From: Kangiella sp.
GTDB taxonomy: Bacteria > Pseudomonadota > Gammaproteobacteria > Enterobacterales > Kangiellaceae
NCBI GenBank assembly: GCA_026195755.1
Contig: JAPHRL010000222.1
Location: forward strand, 1-33,889
DNA: 33,889 nucleotides
Direction: 5' to 3'
Below, in pieces: positions 9,326 to 20,445 of the stretch (positions within the stretch are counted from its first letter, which is position 1; each line of letters begins with the position of its first letter). The notes under the pieces were generated by a model, which was given only the letters and a program-made list of their open reading frames with translations, was not told the DNA's origin and did no database searches. Position numbers and translations under genes: made by a program.

Positions 9326-10096
9326 TTATTTGTTAGTGGTAAAAGGAGAATCAAAGGCCTCCAGAAAATCTTCCACTTCATCAAAACTGTTATACGCAGT
9401 CAGATCCACATTGACGGGCGTGATCGAAACGTAGCCATTCTCAACGGCATGAAAATCCGTTCCTTCCCCAATATCTTGCCCGCTCGGTAAGGGGCCAAGC
9501 CAATATACCTGGCGGCCTTTTGGATCCTTGTCCGGAATAATAGTATCAGCACGGTGGCGATTTCCCAAGCGTGTTAGCTTAATTCCTTTTAATTCTTCAT
9601 AAGGAAGGTCAGGAACATTGATATTCAATACTCTATCTTTACCCAGCGGGTGCTCAATAAGCCCTTCAATGATCTCCGCGGCTACTCGCGCAGCGGTATC
9701 GTAATGTTGGCAGTTGTGCCCAACTAAAGACACTGCCACTGCAGTATACCCCAGGGCACGCCCTTCCATCGCTGCCGCAACCGTACCTGAGTAGAGGGTA
9801 TCATCGCCCAGATTAGCCCCGGTATTGATACCAGCAACCACCATATCCGGCGCTGCACCCATCAAGTGATGAGTGCCAAGGTGCACACAGTCGGTAGGCG
9901 TACCAGTTACGGCGAAAAATCCGCGCTCAGTTTGCCAGGCACGAATCGGGTGTTCCAAAGTTAATGAGTTGCTGGCACCGCTTCGATTGCGATCAGGTGC
10001 AACCACGGTTACCTGGGCAATACGTTGCAAATGGTCATATAAGGCATTAATTCCCGGCGCAAAAAAGCCGTCGTCATTACTCAGCAATATTTTCAT
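9326..10096 (-). CDS. surE: 5'/3'-nucleotidase SurE
   Basis: A 256-residue survival protein that dephosphorylates nucleoside 5'/3' monophosphates and short polyphosphate. The metal-site residues are present: [13 protein letters not shown] at the N terminus, [13 protein letters not shown] near residue 37, and [24 protein letters not shown] near 88. The length is normal. Its start overlaps the last 20 bases of truD, giving translational coupling. It is followed by an 85-base gap before pcm. Confidence 0.95.
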
Positions 10097-11165
10097 AAGA
10101 TTCTTTGTTGGATGTATCTTGTGTGTGGGTTTTCAATGCAAATAGTTCGCGCAATAAACTGGTGGCAAAGGCTCCTTTGGGCAGACTGAAAGCCAGCTCC
10201 AGAGTATTGTCATTATGCCATTGCAAGATGACATTCTGTGGAAAAACACGAATCGCACGGCGCTCACCATTAAGCCCTTTGCGCTCCAAAGCAGCAATCA
10301 GCTCATGATAAGGCTCTAGAACTGCTGTTTCAAATTCAGCGGCTTTAGCTAACAGCTGTGAACGACCACGTCCCGGCATAGGTGCTGTGGGATGGATGTC
10401 TTTTGCAACAAAGCGCGGCAGCTCCTGCGCCATATCCTGAACCGTAAAACCACTTTCAGAACCATCAAGCTGCACATAGTCGCCATCCAGCAACTCTGTA
10501 AACTTATTGGCTTCGATGCGCTTAGCCAAAACCTGATTAAACAAAAAGGAGCGTACGGCAGAAAATAACAGCCCCTGTAGATTACGATTTTTGAGACGTT
10601 TATTAGCCAACAATAAGTCAGCACCGCGAGTTAAATTGTCGCCATTATGACCGAAACGCTGCTCACCAAAATAATTGGCGAAACCGTGCTCCTGAATCTG
10701 TTCAAGCCTTTGCTCTAGGGCTTGCTTATCATAATCCTGGCTAAAGTTCAGATCACGTAAAGTAATCGCAAAATGATTTTGCTTAACCGCACCAATACGT
10801 AACTTTTTATCATGGCGAGTGGCTTTTAGGACTGTCACTTCGTCATCGTTAAACTCAGACCAATCAATCTCTTTAAGCAATGGCAACTGCACGCTGAACC
10901 ATTGTCTTGCGATGGCAAAGCGATCTTTCTTGCCTGCATAGCCAACATCAGTTGGATGAACCTCAGCAAAGCGACGCAGTTTGTGGCACACAATATCAGT
11001 ATTGATATTGCGCTTTTCGATGAGTAGCAGGTGGTGTGCGCCCTCACCCGAGGGTTCAAAGCGTAAATCTTCATCAACGCAGAAGTCGCTAAGCTGTTGA
11101 CGAAAAGTAGCGGTAGCTAATGGAGTACCGTAGGCTCTTGGCCAATCCTGAACGTGTATCTCCAT
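10077..11165 (-). CDS. truD: tRNA pseudouridine(13) synthase TruD
   Basis: A 362-residue pseudouridine synthase acting on U13 of tRNA-Glu. It contains the catalytic-Asp motif [18 protein letters not shown] near residue 74, the NYFGEQRFG block, and the TRUD insertion with PMPGRGRS. The ATG at 11165 (MEIHVQDW) is chosen because it abuts the ispF stop. The open frame continues 33 codons upstream into ispF, but those residues are unlike the family. No strong ribosome-binding site is visible, so coupling to ispF translation is likely. Gene order ispF-truD-surE-pcm is conserved. Confidence 0.94.
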
Positions 11166-11166
11166 C

Positions 11167-11649
11167 TTAATGGTCGATGGATTCAAGCAAGCAAACAGAA
11201 TGCACAGCAATCCCCTCTTTGCGACCAACAAAGCCCAGTTTTTCTGTGGTGGTTGCTTTGACATTAATGCGGTTCAGCTCAGCTTTACAGATATCCGCAA
11301 TGACCTGTTGCATGTCTGGAATTTTAGCGGCCATTTTTGGAGCTTGCGCCACGATAGTGACATCCAGGTTACCTAGGCGATACCCTTCGTCATTCACCTG
11401 CTGCATGACGGCTACTAACAGGCCACGACTATCGGCACCGGCAAATTTTTCGTCAGTGTCAGGAAAATGATGACCAATATCGCCTTTAGTGATAGCGCCC
11501 AATAGCGCATCACAAACCGCGTGCAACACCACATCTCCGTCAGAGTGGGCAAGTAAACCTTGCTCACCGGGAAACTCGACGCCACCTAAAATCAATGGGC
11601 TGTCGCCACCAAATTTATGTACGTCATAACCATGACCAATACGAAACAT
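11167..11649 (-). CDS. ispF: 2-C-methyl-D-erythritol 2,4-cyclodiphosphate synthase
   Basis: A 160-residue trimeric zinc enzyme of the MEP isoprenoid pathway. It contains the ligands GHGYDVHKF (Asp and His near residues 8 and 10), [21 protein letters not shown] and HFPDTDEKF, and the later [19 protein letters not shown] lies about six bases before the ATG. Normally it directly follows ispD, but here the whole his operon intervenes. It begins 34 bases after hisD with no terminator visible between them, so it may be co-transcribed with the his genes. Confidence 0.96.
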
Positions 11650-11683
11650 AGAAATCCTAACACTCGCGCTTAAAAACTGATTG

Positions 11684-12901
11684 CTAGGATCTTACCTGCA
11701 TACTGCGTTCATGCCAAACCAATTGCTCCGCTTCAGCCAGCGGGCGACCAATCTCCGCCAATTGGATACGACCTTCATCGCTAATCTGCTGGTAGGATTG
11801 AATATTCATAAAGCTTTGCACGCACAAGCCACTAGAACGATTGGCGCTGCCCATGGTGGGTAATGTGTGATTAGGGCCGGCACAATAATCCCCGAAAGCC
11901 ACTGCGCTGTTCTGTCCAATAAAGAGCGAGCCGTAGTGCTTCAGGCTTTGCGCTGCAATTCGTTCGTCAGCCAGCAACAGGTGTTCAGGCGCGTAGCGAT
12001 TACTAAAACGAATCATGGCTTCACTGTCATTAGCTTGCAGTAAAACTATCTGCTCGCCTTTGAGTAGATTATTCAGTTCATCATTAGCAAAAAGCTGCTG
12101 CTCGATGGATTGCAGAAACGCCACATCATCACTAACCAATACACTTTGCGCCTGTGGATCATGTTCAGCCTGCGCAGCCATATCGGCAATTAGCCATTCC
12201 TGATTAGCATTAGAGTCGGACAGAATTAGTAGCTCACTTGGTCCTGCTGCAACATCAATTTTGATACGACTTTGCAATAATTGCTTTGCCACGTTCACAT
12301 ATTGATTGCCCGGACCCACCACCATCTGTACCGGCAACATGCTCTGATACCCATAGGCCATTGCTGCGACCGCCTGTGCACCGCCAATGTGCCAGAACTC
12401 TGTTGCTCCTGCCAACGATGCAGCCGCTAAAATTGCAGGGTGCACTGATGGCGAACAGGCTATTCGACGTTCACAACCAGCAACCCGCGCTGGAATCAAG
12501 GTCATCAGTGCAGTTGAAATCAGCGGAAAGCGCCCACCCGGAATATAAGCCCCAATCGCTTCAATAGGACTGTACTGAAAGCCAAACACGCCACTTGCTT
12601 CTTCGAACTGTTGGGGTTGCAATGAATCTTGTTGCAACTGACAGAAAGCTTCAATTCGTTGCGCCGACTGTTCAATCGAGTTTAATAGTTGCGGCTCTAG
12701 CTCGTAGTCACGATAAGAACGTAGCTCGATTTTGCGTGGTTGAAAACCATCAAATCGCTTGCTCAGGTTATCAATCGCAAGATCACCGCCAGTCTCAATT
12801 TCCTTTAAAAGCTTAGCTACCTGTTGAAACAATTCCGGCGATTGGGTGAGATTAGGACGCTTCCAGTTAGAAACGCACTCAATGTAAGATTTATCCGCCA
12901 T
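11684..12901 (-). CDS. hisD: Histidinol dehydrogenase
   Basis: About 405 residues; oxidises histidinol to histidine in two NAD-dependent steps. Zinc ligands and catalytic residues are visible: [10 protein letters not shown] (Gln and His), RYAPEHLLL (Glu-His pair), [14 protein letters not shown] (Asp), and the C-terminal WHERSMQVR (His). The signature [24 protein letters not shown] is also present. The ATG at 12901 is preferred to an open upstream ATG at 12931. It overlaps the end of the hisA-IE frame by 11 bases, with GGGGG as ribosome-binding site, and gives the usual N terminus. hisD is last in this operon, whereas it is second in enteric operons. Confidence 0.96.
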
Positions 12902-14129
12902 TTCGTGCCCCCAATTCGTTAATAATATCACTGGCTGCTACCCCTTTTGATTTAGCTCGCGCCAGGGCAAAGAAGATTAAATCTGCCGCCTCCCAACGCA
13001 CTTCATCTTGATCGTGCGCCTCAATTAACTCTTCGCATTCTTCACGCAGTTTCTCCTGTTGTAAATCATCGCTAGCCAAAAGCTTTTGACTAAAGGTTTT
13101 GATTTCCTGAGTTTGCATGCGTTGTTCAAAAATGCGGTCCAAAGTGTCCAGCTCAAAAGAAGCTGATTGCCCAGCGAAACAACTGTAACGCTCAAAGTGA
13201 CAGGCATTACCTGTTTGTCTAACTTTGAATAATAAAGTATCGCCATCGCAGTCATAATCGACATTCACCAATTGTTGTTGATTGCCACTAGTTAACCCTT
13301 TCTCCCATAACTCATTACGCGAACGGCTGAAATAAATTCCTCTCTTCTGCGTAATGGCAGCCTGTAATGACTCTGGTGTTGAGTAAGCCAGCATTAGCAC
13401 ACTGCCGGTATCCACGTCTTGCACAATGGTTGGAATCAAGGGCGCTTTTTCAAAATCAAGACAAGCCATAACTGCCTCATCCAGTTTTAACTTACCCGTG
13501 TAAATTGACATACCTAACTGGCTGTTAGCACCAAGCTTATTGATAAACTGAATGTCATCCAGATCGGTTATACCACCAGCAACGGTTACCGGAATTTTTG
13601 ATTGCTTGATGACCTGTTCTATTCGCTCACGATCAATGCCTTGCATCATGCCTTCTTTTTCCACCTGGGTATAAAGAAACTCTGAACAGTTATCTTGAAG
13701 CTCATCAATCATGGCTGCAACTTTGCTATTTGAAGAGGACTGCCAGCCGTGAGTTACCCAGTCATCACCTTTTGCATCAATGGCAAATATCAGCTGTGAC
13801 TTTGGCAACTTCTTAACAAATTCTTCGCGACAACAAGTCCCTAAAATAATCTTTTTAGCACCACTGGCAAGATAATCTCTGGCAGTATCGTAATCACGAA
13901 TCCCACCACCCACACGACAGGGAAATTTTTTGATTAGTTGCTTGATTAAGGTTTTATTGTCGCCCTTCCCCAAAGCAGCATTTAAATCAATAATGGCGAC
14001 TTCGCCAAACAAAGAAAACTCTTCCAACAATTCGAACAAATTGTCTTTTTCTACAATCTTTCGACTGGCATCACCTTGCTGCAATTGCACAGCTTTGCCA
14101 TCTAATAAATCAATACTTGGAATCAACAT
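12891..14129 (-). CDS. hisA/hisIE: Trifunctional HisA-HisI-HisE fusion
   Basis: A 412-residue chain with three consecutive enzyme domains. Residues 1 to about 225 form the HisA ProFAR isomerase barrel: LIPSIDLLDGKAVQL with Asp7, VGGGIRD, AIDAK with Asp118, and YTQVEKEG with Thr154. Residues about 228-325 are HisI, phosphoribosyl-AMP cyclohydrolase, with metal-binding DYDCDGD (291-297) and Cys310, His311 and Cys317. Residues about 328-412 are HisE, phosphoribosyl-ATP pyrophosphatase, with EECEE (363-367) and EAAD (380-383). It would catalyse steps 2, 3 and 4 of histidine synthesis. HisIE fusions are common; HisA joined to them is not. All active-site motifs look intact, and no frameshift is needed. 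It starts 10 bases after hisF. Confidence 0.93.
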   Translation of the reverse strand: MLIPSIDLLDGKAVQLQQGDASRKIVEKDNLFELLEEFSLFGEVAIIDLNAALGKGDNKTLIKQLIKKFPCRVGGGIRDYDTARDYLASGAKKIILGTCCREEFVKKLPKSQLIFAIDAKGDDWVTHGWQSSSNSKVAAMIDELQDNCSEFLYTQVEKEGMMQGIDRERIEQVIKQSKIPVTVAGGITDLDDIQFINKLGANSQLGMSIYTGKLKLDEAVMACLDFEKAPLIPTIVQDVDTGSVLMLAYSTPESLQAAITQKRGIYFSRSRNELWEKGLTSGNQQQLVNVDYDCDGDTLLFKVRQTGNACHFERYSCFAGQSASFELDTLDRIFEQRMQTQEIKTFSQKLLASDDLQQEKLREECEELIEAHDQDEVRWEAADLIFFALARAKSKGVAASDIINELGARNGG

Positions 14130-14139
14130 AATTTTTACC

Positions 14140-14967
14140 TTAATCTTTTAAGTATTCGTTTCGAACGGCAACACCGTTTCTCAATAATTCGTCTTTCACC
14201 TGACCAACCGTAAATTCGCCACGATGGAAAATGCCTGCTGCTAGTGCTGCATCGCTGCCTGCGAGAAAGGTCTCGGTAAAGTGCTCAGGTTTGCAAGCAC
14301 CACCCGAGGCGATCACTTGAATACCAAGTTGCTCGCTGACTTTGCTCATCAGCTCATTATCAAAACCAAGACCAGTTCCATCTCGATGCATAGCAGTGAG
14401 TAATACTTCCCCTGCACCACGCTGCTCGACTTGTGCAAGCCACTGCATCGCATCTAAATCGGTCGGAGTATTACCACCATTAATAAAGACCTGGTAATCG
14501 CTTAAAGGCTTGTTCTGATCCTGCTTTTGACTCTGACCTTGATTCAAGTCCACAGCCACCACCACACACTGCGAACCAAAACCCTTAGCAATCTGGTCAA
14601 TCAAATCAGGGTGCTTAACTGCAGCACTATTGAGCGCTACTTTGTCAGCACCGGCATTTAAGAACTGCGCCACATCAGCATAAGTATTCAATCCACCGCC
14701 GACAGTAAATGGAATCGATAAATTTTCTGCCACACGAGTTACAACTTCTAAAGCATTAGCTCGCTGTTCAAGTGTCGCCTTAATATCAAGGAAAACAATC
14801 TCATCAGCTCCCTGTTCCTGGTAACGAACTGCCAACTCAACTGGGTCACCCATATCTTTCAGGCCTTTAAAATTAATTCCTTTAACCACCCGACCATGTG
14901 CCACATCAAGACAAACAATCACCCGGGACTTAAGCCCTTGTTCAATACTGTTTATTAACTCAGACAT
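14140..14967 (-). CDS. hisF: Imidazole glycerol phosphate synthase, cyclase subunit HisF
   Basis: A 275-residue TIM barrel that closes the imidazole ring using ammonia from HisH. The catalytic Asp residues lie in [15 protein letters not shown] (Asp21) and VVVAVDLN (Asp140), with phosphate-binding loops TVGGGLN and [12 protein letters not shown]. It is about 20 residues longer than usual. The excess is an N-terminal extension and a Gln/Lys-rich insert just after Asp140 (roughly residues 142-157, [13 protein letters not shown]). The start overlaps the last 13 bases of hisH, giving coupled synthesis of the two subunits. Confidence 0.95.
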
Positions 14968-15563
14968 TGCTTTAATACCTCTTCGCCAGCTACTCCGGAT
15001 TTTTCAGGGTGGCATTGAAATGCAATCGTGTTATTACTGGCAATAGCAGCAACAAACGTTTGCCCATATGTTACCGTTGCAATCGACTTGTCACTGGCAC
15101 TAACACCATAACTATTGACGAAATAAAGCGTCTGATTGTTGAGCCAATCTTCACTTGATTGAACATCAGACCATCCCACCATCGGTTGTTTTGGGCTTTG
15201 TAACCTAGTCACTTTTCCCTGCAATAATCCCAGTCCTGATACACCAGGATCTTCTTCAGACTCCTCAAACATAATCTGCAAGCCGATACAGATGCCGACC
15301 ATTTTTTTGTTGTCTCGATACCAGTTCGTAATCACCTCATCCAGAGCGCAGGCTTTCAGGTTGGTCATTACAGTTCTAAATCGGCCCTGACCAGGAATAA
15401 CCAAAGCCGAAATGTCGTAGCGCTCCAAATCGCTGGGTTGATTGATTGTTACTGGATAAAAACCCATACGACGTAAGCAACCATTTAAACTATATAAATT
15501 GCCCGCTCCAGTATTTATCACACCCACCGTTTTAGAGGCTTCTTTCATCACTGAATCACTCAT
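14955..15563 (-). CDS. hisH: Imidazole glycerol phosphate synthase, glutaminase subunit HisH
   Basis: A 202-residue class I glutamine amidotransferase that feeds ammonia to HisF. The triad is intact: Cys92 in GICIGLQIMFEE, and His185 and Glu187 in CHPEKSG. Several flanking positions are divergent from the common HisH pattern: PGQGRF replaces PGVGAF/H, FVNSY replaces FVHSY, and QCHPE replaces QFHPE. Its ATG overlaps the hisB stop (ATGA), and it overlaps hisF by 13 bases. Function as HisH is well supported by the partner gene despite the divergence. Confidence 0.92.
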   Translation of the reverse strand: MSDSVMKEASKTVGVINTGAGNLYSLNGCLRRMGFYPVTINQPSDLERYDISALVIPGQGRFRTVMTNLKACALDEVITNWYRDNKKMVGICIGLQIMFEESEEDPGVSGLGLLQGKVTRLQSPKQPMVGWSDVQSSEDWLNNQTLYFVNSYGVSASDKSIATVTYGQTFVAAIASNNTIAFQCHPEKSGVAGEEVLKQCLS

Positions 15564-16156
15564 AAACTACCCTTCGAACTATTGGCACCCGACTTTGGAA
15601 GCAAAGCTTCGCGCAGTGCAAAAGCAAGTCCTTTGAAAGAGGCTTCAATTAAGTGGTGATTGTTATCGAAATACTCCGCTTTAATGTGCAAACTTATCTG
15701 CGCATTAATCGCGAAGGTGTAGAAAAAGTGTTTCCACATTTCAGTAGCAATATTGCCAATCATTTCGCGTGTAAAAGGTAAGTCCGTTACGCCGTAACCA
15801 CGTCCACACACATCCACCGCGACCATGATCAGGCTGGCGTCCATCGGTAACAATCGTTGCCCATAACGGGTGATCGACTCTTGTTCGCGCCATGCTTGCT
15901 GCAAAGCTTGTCCTAAACAAATCGCGACATCTTCAATCAGGTGATGATCATCAACCTCTAAGTCACCATTGGCTTCAAGATTTAAATTCCAACCTGCGTG
16001 CAATGCCAACTGAGTGAGCATGTGATCGAAGAAAGGCAGTCCAGTATTGATCTTGAGCTTCTGCTGGCCATAGATATTGAGATCCAGGCGAATAGCTGTC
16101 TCTTTAGTCTGACGGACAATAGAAACTATAGACTTTTGGTTCTTTGTGTCACTCAT
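15560..16156 (-). CDS. hisB: Imidazoleglycerol-phosphate dehydratase (monofunctional HisB)
   Basis: A 198-residue dehydratase with both metal-binding repeats: GLPFFDHMLTQLALH and VDDHHLIEDVAICLGQAL in the first half, and TEMWKHFFYTFAINAQISLHI and NNHHLIEASFKGLAFALREAL in the second. It lacks the N-terminal HAD phosphatase domain that enteric HisB carries, so histidinol-phosphate dephosphorylation must come from another protein. The upstream HisC fusion supplies a HAD domain. ATGA overlaps join it to both hisC and hisH. Confidence 0.95.
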   Translation of the reverse strand: MSDTKNQKSIVSIVRQTKETAIRLDLNIYGQQKLKINTGLPFFDHMLTQLALHAGWNLNLEANGDLEVDDHHLIEDVAICLGQALQQAWREQESITRYGQRLLPMDASLIMVAVDVCGRGYGVTDLPFTREMIGNIATEMWKHFFYTFAINAQISLHIKAEYFDNNHHLIEASFKGLAFALREALLPKSGANSSKGSL

Positions 16157-17850
16157 AATAACCTCTCTAAATCATTTACTGACGCCACTACCAGATCGGC
16201 ACCAGCTTGATATAAATTTTGTTCGTTATCTTTGTTACTAACTCCAATAGCCAATGCGCCCGCTGCTTTAGCTGCCTGAATATCATCCGGTGTATCACCC
16301 AGCATCCAACAATAAGTTGCGCCATAATAAGCTTTACACTGATTGATTCCTTCTGGAGCAGGTTTAGACTCAATAACATCACAATCACTAACCAAATACG
16401 TATTACGAATCCCTAGCAGCTCTAAGCCAATTTCAGCTTCTCCACGAGGACGACCCGTGACTACCGCAGTTTTAAATTGCTTGCTGTTCTGTACAAATAA
16501 CTGAGTACAAAGATTTGTATCCAATAAGGCCTCTTCTAATTCATTGAGGCCTGCTTGACCACTACTGCCCAGATAAAACAACTGAAACTGTTCCACCACT
16601 GAGTCGTAGTTTGGCAATGAATCTTCTCGTTGTATCTTTATTAATTCATAGGTCAGCACCCAGTCATTATTAAATCCGCCACGTGAACGTAATGTGTCGA
16701 TTGCTTGTTGCTCTGGTTGTGTACCAATAAAGAACTCTACTGTTTGCTTGATAGCAGCGTCGTAACTCTTGCTGGTGTCAATCAAAACCCCATCCATATC
16801 AAAACAAATCAGCTCAGGTTTAAGCGCGAGTACCAAAGCCTGTCTTAGTACTTCCAATTCATAAGGAATGGCAATACGGATTGCTGACTGCTCTTGTGAA
16901 TCCAACTCCTTTTGCTCTAAGCCAACCAAATCAGTTTTAATCTGGATATTGCTTTGTTCACAAGCCGCTTTAATCAGTTTCAGTCTTTGTGGATTATCAA
17001 CAATCAGAATAAAATTAGCCTGGCTGTCTAACACATTCAAACCACGCTGGCGCAAAAACTGCACTAACAGATCACGGTTCTCTGCGATGCGCTGAGTAAA
17101 GTCCGCCACATCTCGTTGTGCCGCTTGAGTGAATGCCTGAATAGCGATTTCCAGAGTTGGCTGCGGCACATTGAATGGCATCTTGCGCTCAGCAAATCGC
17201 TTAATGAAAGCTTCACCACCCAATAGATAACCGCATCGAATGCCAGCCAGTCCATAAGCTTTGGATAAAGTGCGAAGCAGCACCAGGTTATCGAACTCTT
17301 CTAGCAAAGAAAGAGACTCTTCTGCCTGCCCTGTAAACTCGATATAAGCCTGATCAAGAAAGACCTCCGCTCCTTTGTTCTTGGCCTTTCGACAAGCATC
17401 TCTAATGAAATCCAAAGAAAGCGTTTCACCGGTTGGGTTATTAGGACTAGTCAATACCAGAATCGACTTCTCTGTTAGTGCTTGCAGGCTTGCCTCAAGA
17501 TCAATTGATAAATCTGACTTAGCTGGAATCAGTTTAGCTTTACTGCTCCAAACCTTGATGCCCGATAAATATTGACTAAAAGCAGGCATCGGAATGATCA
17601 AGTCACGCTGCTCAAGCGTTGCCAGTTTGAACATCAGTTCAATCGCTTCGTCGCCACCGTTGGTTACTAAAATCTGCTCGGGACTCAAACCCAACTGCTT
17701 GCTCATGGCTGATTTCAACTGAGACTGATCGGGATAGCGCCAATAGTTCTGTGGCGATAGTTTGCTGGTATCCAACCACTCAGGGAAACGATCCGCCCGC
17801 TCATTAAAATCGAGCTTTAACGGCTCAGTTTTGATTTCTTTCATATTCAT
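16153..17850 (-). CDS. hisC: Histidinol-phosphate aminotransferase fused to a HAD phosphatase domain
   Basis: About 565 residues. The first 346 or so form a PLP aminotransferase of the HisC type, with SPNNPTGETLS, LDQAYIEF and the PLP-lysine motif RTLSKAYGLAGIRCGYL. The last about 219 residues form a complete HAD phosphohydrolase domain. It has motif I FDMDGVLID, a cap region, motif II VVTGRPRGE, the motif III Lys in IESKPAPEG and motif IV MLGDTPDDIQAA. The linker is short, at about base 16812. HisC makes histidinol phosphate and a HAD phosphatase could remove its phosphate, so the fusion would join consecutive substrate-related steps. The ATG at 17850 is favoured (AAGG eight bases upstream); GTG at 17853 is possible. 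The HAD domain resembles the small archaeal/cyanobacterial TIGR01548-type clade from memory; that is unverified. Confidence 0.9.
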   Translation of the reverse strand: MNMKEIKTEPLKLDFNERADRFPEWLDTSKLSPQNYWRYPDQSQLKSAMSKQLGLSPEQILVTNGGDEAIELMFKLATLEQRDLIIPMPAFSQYLSGIKVWSSKAKLIPAKSDLSIDLEASLQALTEKSILVLTSPNNPTGETLSLDFIRDACRKAKNKGAEVFLDQAYIEFTGQAEESLSLLEEFDNLVLLRTLSKAYGLAGIRCGYLLGGEAFIKRFAERKMPFNVPQPTLEIAIQAFTQAAQRDVADFTQRIAENRDLLVQFLRQRGLNVLDSQANFILIVDNPQRLKLIKAACEQSNIQIKTDLVGLEQKELDSQEQSAIRIAIPYELEVLRQALVLALKPELICFDMDGVLIDTSKSYDAAIKQTVEFFIGTQPEQQAIDTLRSRGGFNNDWVLTYELIKIQREDSLPNYDSVVEQFQLFYLGSSGQAGLNELEEALLDTNLCTQLFVQNSKQFKTAVVTGRPRGEAEIGLELLGIRNTYLVSDCDVIESKPAPEGINQCKAYYGATYCWMLGDTPDDIQAAKAAGALAIGVSNKDNEQNLYQAGADLVVASVNDLERLL

Positions 17851-17875
17851 CACACTTACCTTTTTTAAACGGGCG

Positions 17876-18724
17876 CTACAGCACTTTGCGAATCGGCGTT
17901 TCTAAAATATCCGTTGCACCAGCTGTAATCAGTTTCGGTAACAAGTCTTTAATCAGCTTACGCTCAATGGCTGCTTTAATAGCAAAACCATCGGCGTTAT
18001 ACAGTTGGCTGACGGTTGGGGCTCGCATTGCAGGCAATAAATCGACAACCCTATCGATGCTCTCTTCTGAGCAGTTCATCTCCAGTAACACACGCTTACG
18101 ACCATTAAGAACACCACGCATCAAAAGCAAAAGGTCGTCAATCTGTTGACGTTTTGCGGGATCATTTATAACGTCCTTATTAGCGATAAGCTGGGTTGAA
18201 CTTTCCATAACCGTATCAACAATCTTCAAACGATTAGCGCGAATAGTCGAACCAGTGCTGGTATTGTCGATCACCATATCCGCATCTTCTGGCGGGAAAA
18301 CTTCAGTCGCGCCATAAGCACGGAGCAGCTGATATTGAACGCCCAACTTATCGAGATACTTCGCAGAAATTTTCTTATACTCGGAAGCAACAATAATTTT
18401 TCGCTGCTGTACCTCGTTCCAATCCCACTCTTCTGGAATACAGGAAACTAGTCTGACCGGGTTAAAACCTAAATCCTCAAGAACCTCAACGTCCGCCTCC
18501 TGCTCCAGCACCCAGTCCATGCCCGCAAAGCCAATATCGTGTTGGCCCAGCGCCACCATTTCAGGAATGTTCTGACTTTTCAGCAACTTAACCTCGATAT
18601 CACAGCCAAATAGCTGAGGGCGATAATTACGACTATCACCAACCAACGTCAGACCAATATCGGAAAGTAGCTCAGCCACCTTGTCGTATAACTTCCCTTT
18701 TGGGATTACCATTTTTAAAGCCAT
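17876..18724 (-). CDS. hisG: ATP phosphoribosyltransferase, long form
   Basis: First enzyme of histidine synthesis, 282 residues. The long form has a C-terminal ACT-like domain (from about residue 215, ending LPKLITAGATDILETPIRKVL) that binds histidine for feedback inhibition, so no HisZ partner is expected. The catalytic domain shows IPKGKLYDK, the DIGFAGMDWVLE loop and the PRPP-binding motif VIDNTSTGSTIRANRLK. AGGAG sits nine bases before the ATG. It is the first structural gene after the second attenuator and is 22-25 bases before hisC. Confidence 0.96.
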   Translation of the reverse strand: MALKMVIPKGKLYDKVAELLSDIGLTLVGDSRNYRPQLFGCDIEVKLLKSQNIPEMVALGQHDIGFAGMDWVLEQEADVEVLEDLGFNPVRLVSCIPEEWDWNEVQQRKIIVASEYKKISAKYLDKLGVQYQLLRAYGATEVFPPEDADMVIDNTSTGSTIRANRLKIVDTVMESSTQLIANKDVINDPAKRQQIDDLLLLMRGVLNGRKRVLLEMNCSEESIDRVVDLLPAMRAPTVSQLYNADGFAIKAAIERKLIKDLLPKLITAGATDILETPIRKVL

Positions 18725-18790: not shown

Positions 18791-18829
18791 AATAAAAAAC
18801 CCCGTTGACCTTGCGGAGCAACGGGGTTT
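18791..18829 (-). terminator. His attenuator terminator 2 (proximal to hisG)
   Basis: On the minus strand a perfect 11-bp stem (AAACCCCGTTG with CAACGGGGTTT, 18829-18819 and 18807-18797) is followed by a T-rich tract, 67 bases upstream of hisG. An alternative pairing is possible: GAGCGACGG in the second leader ORF (18902-18894) can pair over nine positions, one of them G-U, with CCGTTGCTC at 18824-18816. This would break the terminator. It is the expected geometry of translational attenuation. Confidence 0.9.
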
Positions 18830-18863
18830 CTAAACCTGGGTGTCTTAACTGTTTAACTGAGTC

Positions 18864-18950
18864 TTAAAAAAGTCTTAAACATAAGCACCGCCACCGTCGC
18901 TCGCGCAGTGTATGATGATGGTGATGATGTAAGCTCTTGTTTAAAAACAT
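18864..18950 (-). CDS. hisL: Second histidine operon leader peptide
   Basis: A 28-codon ORF on the minus strand beginning MFLNKSLHHHHHHTLRERR. It has six consecutive His codons at positions 8-13 and ends 34 bases before terminator 2. It is followed by the Arg/Trp/Cys-rich end WRCLCLRLF. Ribosome stalling at the His run when charged tRNA-His is scarce would free GAGCGACGG for antitermination. There is only a weak ribosome-binding site (GAG ten bases upstream). A second leader this close to a complete first one is unusual. It shows little sequence similarity to leader 1 outside the His run. Confidence 0.85.
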   Translation of the reverse strand: MFLNKSLHHHHHHTLRERRWRCLCLRLF

Positions 18951-19016: not shown

Positions 19017-19046
19017 AAAAAAAGCCCCGCTTCTGGCGGGGCTTTT
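19017..19046 (-). terminator. His attenuator terminator 1 (distal)
   Basis: On the minus strand a perfect 11-bp stem (AAAAGCCCCGC with GCGGGGCTTTT, loop CAGAA) runs into seven T. An antiterminator can form instead: GGCGG (19090-19086) and GCTTT (19081-19077) of leader 1 pair with CCGCC (19039-19035) and AAAGC (19045-19041). This gives ten base pairs around a small internal loop and destroys the 5' arm. It stands between the two leader ORFs. Confidence 0.92.
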
Positions 19047-19068: not shown

Positions 19069-19131
19069 TCACACATAAAGCAACACCGCCAATCGGTCTG
19101 AATGGTGGTGATGGTGGTGAATTTGCGTCAT
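19069..19131 (-). CDS. hisL: First histidine operon leader peptide
   Basis: A 20-codon ORF on the minus strand reading MTQIHHHHHHSDRLAVLLYV, with six consecutive His codons at positions 5-10. This is the classic his leader format. An in-frame ATG four codons earlier (19143) would give an MNTV extension and would lie almost at the predicted transcription start, so either start is possible; neither has a clear ribosome-binding site. Codons 14-18 contain the strand that forms the antiterminator with terminator 1. The stop codon is 22 bases before the terminator stem. Confidence 0.92.
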   Translation of the reverse strand: MTQIHHHHHHSDRLAVLLYV

Positions 19132-19150
19132 TACTGTATTCATGAGGCTG

Positions 19151-19743: not shown

Positions 19744-20445
19744 TCAATTACCCGCCAACCAAACCGATGCTAACATCATGTCTTCCGGTTCGGTGACTTT
19801 GATATTTTTGCGAGTTCCTATGACCAGAGCTGGGTGCTGGCCTTGCGCTTCGATAGCGGAGGCTTCATCGGTTATGGGCAATCCTTTCTCCAAACCTATA
19901 TCAATCGCTGTCGCTAAGGCTTCAACGGGAAAATATTGTGGTGTTTGGGCCAGCCAGATTTGTTCGCGGTTAAGCGTTTTATCGATCGTTTGGTTAGCGT
20001 TTGCAAGTTTGACGGTGTCCACTGAGGGGATAGCCAGAATAGCGCCATGTTTTGAATCTTTTCCGGCCTGAATCAGCGCATCGATGCTAGCTGTATCAAG
20101 GCAGGGTCTGGCGGCGTCGTGCACCATCACCCAGTCATCACCACCCTTCTGCTGCTTAATGGCTTGCAACCCATTAAGCACAGACTCTGCACGCGTTTCG
20201 CCACCTTCAACAGTAATGACTTTAGGATGCTTGGCGATTTTGAGCTTTGCCCAATGATTGTCGTTGGGGTGTAAGGCAACTACAACTTTATCAATGGATG
20301 GATGTTCGAGAAACTTGGATAGGCTGTGCTCAAGAATGGTTTTGTCATCAATTTCAAGATACTGCTTCGGCAGTTCGGCTTTCATCCGACTGCCAATTCC
20401 TGCTGCCGGAATCAGTGCCCAAATCTTCGGTTTACTTTCAGTCAT
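19744..20445 (-). CDS. ispD: 2-C-methyl-D-erythritol 4-phosphate cytidylyltransferase
   Basis: A 233-residue MEP-pathway enzyme that transfers CMP to methylerythritol phosphate. It has the nucleotide-binding start IPAAGIGSRMKAELPKQYL, the ribose/phosphate motif VMVHDAARPCL near residue 105, LAQTPQ near 165 and TDEASAIEAQG near 190, then NIKVTEPEDM. It begins five bases after ftsB stops, so the two are co-transcribed. Its normal downstream partner ispF is about 8 kb away beyond the his operon. A REP-like hairpin follows the stop. Confidence 0.96.
   Translation of the reverse strand: MTESKPKIWALIPAAGIGSRMKAELPKQYLEIDDKTILEHSLSKFLEHPSIDKVVVALHPNDNHWAKLKIAKHPKVITVEGGETRAESVLNGLQAIKQQKGGDDWVMVHDAARPCLDTASIDALIQAGKDSKHGAILAIPSVDTVKLANANQTIDKTLNREQIWLAQTPQYFPVEALATAIDIGLEKGLPITDEASAIEAQGQHPALVIGTRKNIKVTEPEDMMLASVWLAGN

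Follow-up and report, generated by a model that had tools for sequence, protein, structure and literature searches.

Histidine synthesis is the classic example from which gene fusion and the evolution of operons are taught, and the 33,889-nucleotide stretch of Kangiella DNA analysed here (the window) poses a question on both counts: does a single gene make a working enzyme for three consecutive steps of the pathway, and where did that gene come from? We put a probability of roughly 0.86 on the following reading: the gene encodes a trifunctional enzyme acting from PR-ATP to PRFAR, is present as a sole copy, has a HisA part of a Glu159 type, and goes back to a single fusion followed by operon transfer.

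One open reading frame with three domains

The fused gene and its domains were assigned by Pfam and residue comparison.

12891..14129, minus strand: hisA-hisI-hisE fused gene, a single ORF of 412 aa, from ATG at 14129 to stop at 12891
13464..14129, minus strand: HisA (ProFAR isomerase) barrel, residues 1-222
13152..13463, minus strand: HisI (PRA-CH) domain, residues 223-326
12894..13151, minus strand: HisE (PRA-PH) domain, residues 327-412

An earlier note on this DNA had described HisA, HisI and HisE as one in-frame chain of this length. Its coordinates are exact, and the strand, which it did not give, is minus; the plus strand across 12891-14129 has many stops. Pfam recovered the three domains in the order that the note had proposed, all above their gathering cut-offs: His_biosynth at residues 2-214 (154.7 bits; cut-off 23.6), PRA-CH at 246-318 (102.4 bits; cut-off 27) and PRA-PH at 328-410 (54.8 bits; cut-off 21.3). 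One chain carries domains for steps 2, 3 and 4 of the pathway and, as also remarked earlier, their order along the chain differs from that of the reactions. Among NCBIfam models, the protein reaches TIGR03188 for HisE (47.8 against 42.7), misses the HisA equivalog TIGR00007 (165.6 against 228.95 bits) and misses the HisIE equivalog NF002747 (169.1 against 187); no model dedicated to a HisA-HisIE fusion came up. Because its two halves fall below the equivalog cut-offs, automated pathway tools may list hisA as missing from organisms of this kind.

An AlphaFold2 model of the fused protein, built from an alignment of 41 relatives, has a mean pLDDT of 92.8 and a pTM of 0.87. In this predicted structure the last HisA helix (216-222) leads directly to HisI, whose first strand spans 232-238; no linker has been added between the two. 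Foldseek matched the N-terminal half to HisA/PriA (TM about 0.8 by target) and the C-terminal half to HisIE 6j22 (0.71).

Could sequencing, assembly or annotation have joined two genes artificially? The source genome is fragmented and only 86% complete, which could favour such an error, but 18 of the 19 genomes of the genus have the fused ORF without interruption, among them several that are single contigs, and the one lacking it is 55% complete. The same fusion is present in isolates (Kangiella aquimarina DSM 16071, Marinicella litoralis, Acanthopleuribacter pedis, Pleionea and Aliikangiella) and in many phyla. We give an artefact next to no weight; a stop codon hidden between HisA and HisI, which the earlier note had raised against itself, is excluded by the intact congeneric frames.

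Distribution and copy number

A scan of GTDB contigs returned at least 80 loci, nearly all of which aligned from residue 1 to about residue 409, with identities of 41-94%; the window protein is 94% identical to that of a Kangiella MAG and 88% identical to that of K. aquimarina DSM 16071. The matches listed fall into about 15 named phyla, bacterial (Pseudomonadota, Acidobacteriota, Myxococcota, Planctomycetota, Melainabacteria, Bacillota, Gemmatimonadota and Calditrichota among them) and archaeal (including Woesearchaeota and Nanobdellota), where phylum is the NCBI rank of the record names, many assignments rest on MAGs and isolated odd phyla should be read with care. Closer to the window, 15 of 17 same-family genomes have the fused ORF. 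Two further families of the order (G039, G049) also have full-length copies, and a third (G048) a contig-edge piece, while the remaining families of the order have hisA and hisIE as separate genes. One genome of the same family, G020 (73% complete), carries an ordinary separate hisA and hisIE; we read this as a case of replacement, or as another his operon occurring in this family.

Frequencies were taken from even draws, each including its seed genome and counting genomes with a hisA/hisIE match. The fusion was found in 5 of 38 Acidobacteriota (plus one broken by contig ends), about 10 of 33 Planctomycetota (including two HisA-HisI forms without HisE and one split at contig ends) and about 19 of 44 Myxococcota; a draw of 80 genomes from the Woesearchaeota phylum contained five his-bearing genomes, two of them fused. 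The Pseudomonadota draw gave 1 of 114, namely the window's own genome. The earlier worry that the architecture might already be common was therefore justified for its spread across phyla, but not within Pseudomonadota, where the other 113 his-bearing genomes lack it.

Variant forms were also seen. Two Planctomycetota loci (L178:2172-3122 and L179:1381-2343) are HisA-HisI fusions that end before HisE, and a search with TIGR03188 found no HisE in these genomes. L130 and L133 contain ORFs of 603 and 589 aa that apparently carry two HisA/HisF-type barrels per chain followed by hisIE, with total scores well above that of the best single domain. Plasmids were considered as the vehicle of the fusion and rejected: the best 12 plasmid matches carry separate genes only, with no fused copy among them.

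In the window's own genome the fused gene is the only match, with no other HisA or HisI(E). The same holds for all 23 other fused genomes searched, which come from many phyla and have it as their sole HisA and sole HisI(E) match. Any histidine synthesis in these cells must therefore depend on this chain for steps 2-4.

The his operon and its attenuators

The operon in the window runs hisG, hisC::HAD, hisB, hisH, hisF, hisA::IE, hisD, behind two leader peptides:

19069..19143, minus strand: first his leader peptide, MNTVMTQIHHHHHHSDRLAVLLYV, with a terminator at 19020-19046
18864..18950, minus strand: second his leader peptide, MFLNKSLHHHHHHTLRERRWRCLCLRLF, with a terminator hairpin at about 18797-18830
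17876..18724, minus strand: hisG, long form with HisG_C
16153..17853, minus strand: hisC joined to a C-terminal HAD phosphatase (TIGR01548-like) in one in-frame ORF
15560..16156, minus strand: hisB, dehydratase only, without the N-terminal phosphatase
14955..15563, minus strand: hisH
14140..14967, minus strand: hisF, directly upstream of the fused gene
11684..12931, minus strand: hisD, directly downstream, overlapping the 3′ end of the fused gene

This context is widely kept: despite contig ends, hisF lies directly upstream of the fused gene in 72 of the 80 matches listed and hisD directly downstream in 66 of the 80. Both leader peptides precede hisG, and each contains a run of six His codons, with a terminator hairpin (z about -3.6 to -4.2) behind the peptide. 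Both leaders are retained in tandem in most Kangiella loci (L039-L041, L043-L046) and at Marinicella L059, L075 and L080; single His-run leaders stand before other fused operons, including those of Acidobacteriota L073, L076, L078 and L079. No Rfam leader RNA was detected in the window at gathering scores. Leaders of this kind are what one would expect to control a histidine operon, and they support the assigned pathway.

A second fusion lies in the same operon. At least one of its two parts, hisC or the HAD phosphatase, was detected at 64 loci, 53 of which have both in a single ORF, and the HAD catalytic motifs are kept in 55 aligned copies; TIGR01548 is classed by NCBI as a 'hypothetical equivalog'. 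Since hisB here lacks the HolPase half, hisC::HAD makes a good candidate for histidinol-phosphate phosphatase, an enzyme that is often missing, and its HAD part probably has this role, which would place steps 7 and 8 in one chain. Searches of open-licence papers on Kangiella his genes, TIGR01548 and hisAIE returned nothing relevant.

The operon is located between ispD and ispF-truD-surE (9326-12931 and 19744-20445, minus strand). These genes usually adjoin in gammaproteobacteria, and the site fits insertion of a whole operon.

A variant HisA active site

Two codons of the HisA part, located by alignment, bear on its chemistry:

14085..14087, minus strand: Gln15 codon, at the position of HisA Arg15
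13653..13655, minus strand: Glu159 codon, at the position of the HisA catalytic acid Asp176

The window protein keeps D7, D118 (E. coli D129) and W129 (W145), and replaces R15 by Q15, D176 by E159 and S202 by A184. In 41 diverse fused proteins, HisA D7, D118, W129, GGG74-76, R78 (R83) and the phosphate-binding glycines are 100% invariant. So are HisI D293-C294-D295-x-D297, C310-H311 and C317, and HisE E363-E364-x-x-E367 and E380-x-x-D383. Of these, the HisI DCDxD motif and the two later Cys are taken as the PRA-CH Zn/Mg ligands; the assignment of metal-binding residues in HisI and HisE follows general knowledge of the two families. The statement in the earlier note that all three active sites are intact holds for the key residues of HisI and HisE and for D7, D129 and W145 of HisA, but not for the HisA catalytic acid, which is Glu, or for Arg15, which is Gln.

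These two changes separate the fused type cleanly from ordinary HisA. Q15/E159 occurs in 58 of 58 members of the clade described below (49/49 fused and 9/9 nearest unfused), against R/D in 44/44 ordinary HisA proteins; the HisA proteins of Ilyobacter and Deinococcus also have Asp at the D176 position. The Ser202 position is Ala in the fused-type clade and Ser in 42 of 44 ordinary proteins; A184 was dropped as a clade signature because the other two also have Ala.

Asp176 is the catalytic acid of HisA (PMC9088769). In Salmonella enterica HisA, D176A and D176V abolish HisA activity, while R15S keeps it and gains TrpF activity (PMC7591586). Glu in place of Asp176 retains the acid group, and Glu159 most likely acts as the general acid instead. 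We regard the changed acid as the most interesting feature of the fused enzyme.

The same substitutions could be taken to mean that the barrel has lost or changed its activity, serving as a structural element or catalysing another isomerisation, with step 4 carried out elsewhere. Glu and Gln at these positions in every member, together with the missed TIGR00007 cut-off, speak for this possibility. We consider it unlikely, given that no other HisA was found in 24 of 24 genomes searched, that D7, D129, W145 and the phosphate-binding glycines do not vary, and that the fused gene is part of complete his operons that have His leader peptides. Still less probable is a dual HisA/TrpF isomerase of the PriA kind. 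PriA proteins are the top PDB and Foldseek relatives of the barrel, and the R15S result shows how TrpF activity can follow from a change at residue 15, but among 30 fused genomes trpF and trpA are both present in 19, both absent in 11, and trpA never occurs without trpF. With trpF present exactly where trpA is, the barrel is not filling in for TrpF, and this co-occurrence, in 30/30 genomes, led us to reject a PriA-like TrpF function.

The protein is most likely, indeed very probably, a working trifunctional enzyme for steps 2-4 with a variant HisA active site. Its HisE domain would remove pyrophosphate from PR-ATP (step 2), its HisI domain would open the purine ring (step 3), and its HisA barrel would isomerise ProFAR to PRFAR (step 4), using Glu159 as general acid and having Gln in place of the loop-1 Arg15. 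As the cell's only source of HisA and HisIE, the chain would be made from a compact his operon under His-codon attenuation. No published biochemistry for any member of the fused family was found in the open-licence literature.

Phylogeny and history of the fusion

A HisA tree was built from 104 rows. Its 49 fused domains make up one side of a branch (SH-aLRT 91), and the addition of nine unfused relatives (L120-L128, eight drawn from Acidobacteriota and one from the archaeal phylum) gives a clade with SH-aLRT 98 on a stem of 0.72. In the HisIE tree, too, a branch (81) separates the fused rows from the others. The HisA part of the Kangiella copy belongs to a subclade that also contains Acidobacteriota and Marinicella, which argues that the Kangiella gene was inherited or transferred already fused.

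The earlier note had inferred stepwise fusion of neighbouring genes. This is plausible as the origin of the fusion, but not as an event in this lineage, the fused HisAs being together with a few unfused relatives on one long stem. A recent joining of adjacent hisA and hisIE in the Kangiella lineage would agree with the separate genes of most gammaproteobacterial relatives in the order. It is hardly credible, however, when fused HisAs of many phyla share one clade with only nine unfused relatives, when the Kangiella copy groups as described and not with gammaproteobacterial HisA, and when the residue signature is common to the fused proteins and those unfused relatives and is found in no ordinary HisA sampled.

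The operons of these nearest unfused relatives are ordered hisI-G-D-C-B-H-F-A. With hisI first and hisA last, behind hisF, they show no simple adjacency of hisA and hisIE. These L120-L128 operons combine an unfused Q15/E159-type hisA with a stand-alone hisI. A search with TIGR03188 found no convincing HisE in the seven genomes tested, giving only weak, MazG-like PRA-PH matches; step 2 may be performed there by another pyrophosphohydrolase.

Could the unfused relatives be secondary fissions, with the fusion the older state of this HisA type? A tree with these relatives nested among fused forms of archaea and Melainabacteria was not rejected by an AU test (p 0.59). We nevertheless find this doubtful: a quick HisA tree places them outside the fused clade, their hisI is at the other end of the operon, and their HisI groups with ordinary HisI(E), outside fused HisIE, which argues against simple fission.

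A single fusion with horizontal transfer of the operon between phyla appears to be the simplest reading. This HisA type would have been fused once to hisIE, after which the operon would have spread; probably the residue change came first, then the fusion, then operon transfer, an order that is moderately supported. We lean, if narrowly, towards a broader proposal, in which a second lineage of ProFAR isomerases, with a Glu acid and Gln15, was overlooked, predates the fusion and spread as a three-in-one enzyme, carried by a transferable his operon, through bacteria and into DPANN archaea, possibly with a benefit from channelling between the joined active sites.

Comparison with known systems

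Five his fusions were listed in a 2007 survey (hisA/hisF elongation, hisIE, hisHF, hisNB and hisIED), with no hisA-IE (PMC1963479), and a 2023 review gives hisD, N, B, H, F, I and E as the fused genes without naming hisA (PMC10138114). A 2024 survey of archaeal fusions reports HisA/F-HisIE fusions in four metagenomic assemblies (cluster 787.1; PMC11237513). This is evidently the same architecture, and our Woesearchaeota/Nanoarchaeota loci L082-L084 and L090 would fit it. The passages that deal with these fusions treat them as sporadic and rare, in DPANN and unclassified archaea, and make no mention of the bacterial family, its residue signature or its operon. Nor did the open literature searched yield any account of how widely hisA-hisIE is spread in bacteria, of its single-clade pattern or of the residue signature. 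The architecture is therefore neither unheard of nor unique to the window genome, but the large family to which it belongs is hardly described. Its wide occurrence fills a gap, the only hisA-containing fusion in the reviews, within the open literature, being the HisA/HisF elongation. In addition, the replacement of the catalytic Asp by Glu, which is invariant here, extends to a few unfused relatives and is absent from the ordinary HisA sampled, offers a natural experiment on the mechanism of a barrel isomerase.

Compared with HisIE (E. coli HisI, S. flexneri HisIE 6j22, plant HISN2), the fused protein has the same HisI-HisE order and the same metal-binding and EExxE residues, at 33-34% identity, but carries HisA ahead of them without an added linker. 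It shares with S. enterica HisA and PriA the barrel, D7, D129, W145, the phosphate-binding motifs and the place in the pathway; in contrast to them, it has Glu for Asp176 and Gln for Arg15, is about 20 residues shorter, and is fused. PriA replaces a missing trpF, whereas the fused barrel, by trpF/trpA co-occurrence, does not. Among multifunctional his proteins, HIS7 (hisHF) joins HisH and HisF. Fungal HIS4 (hisIED) is also built on HisIE but joins HisD rather than HisA and, unlike in HIS4's HisIE-HisD chain, hisD in the window is a separate gene downstream.
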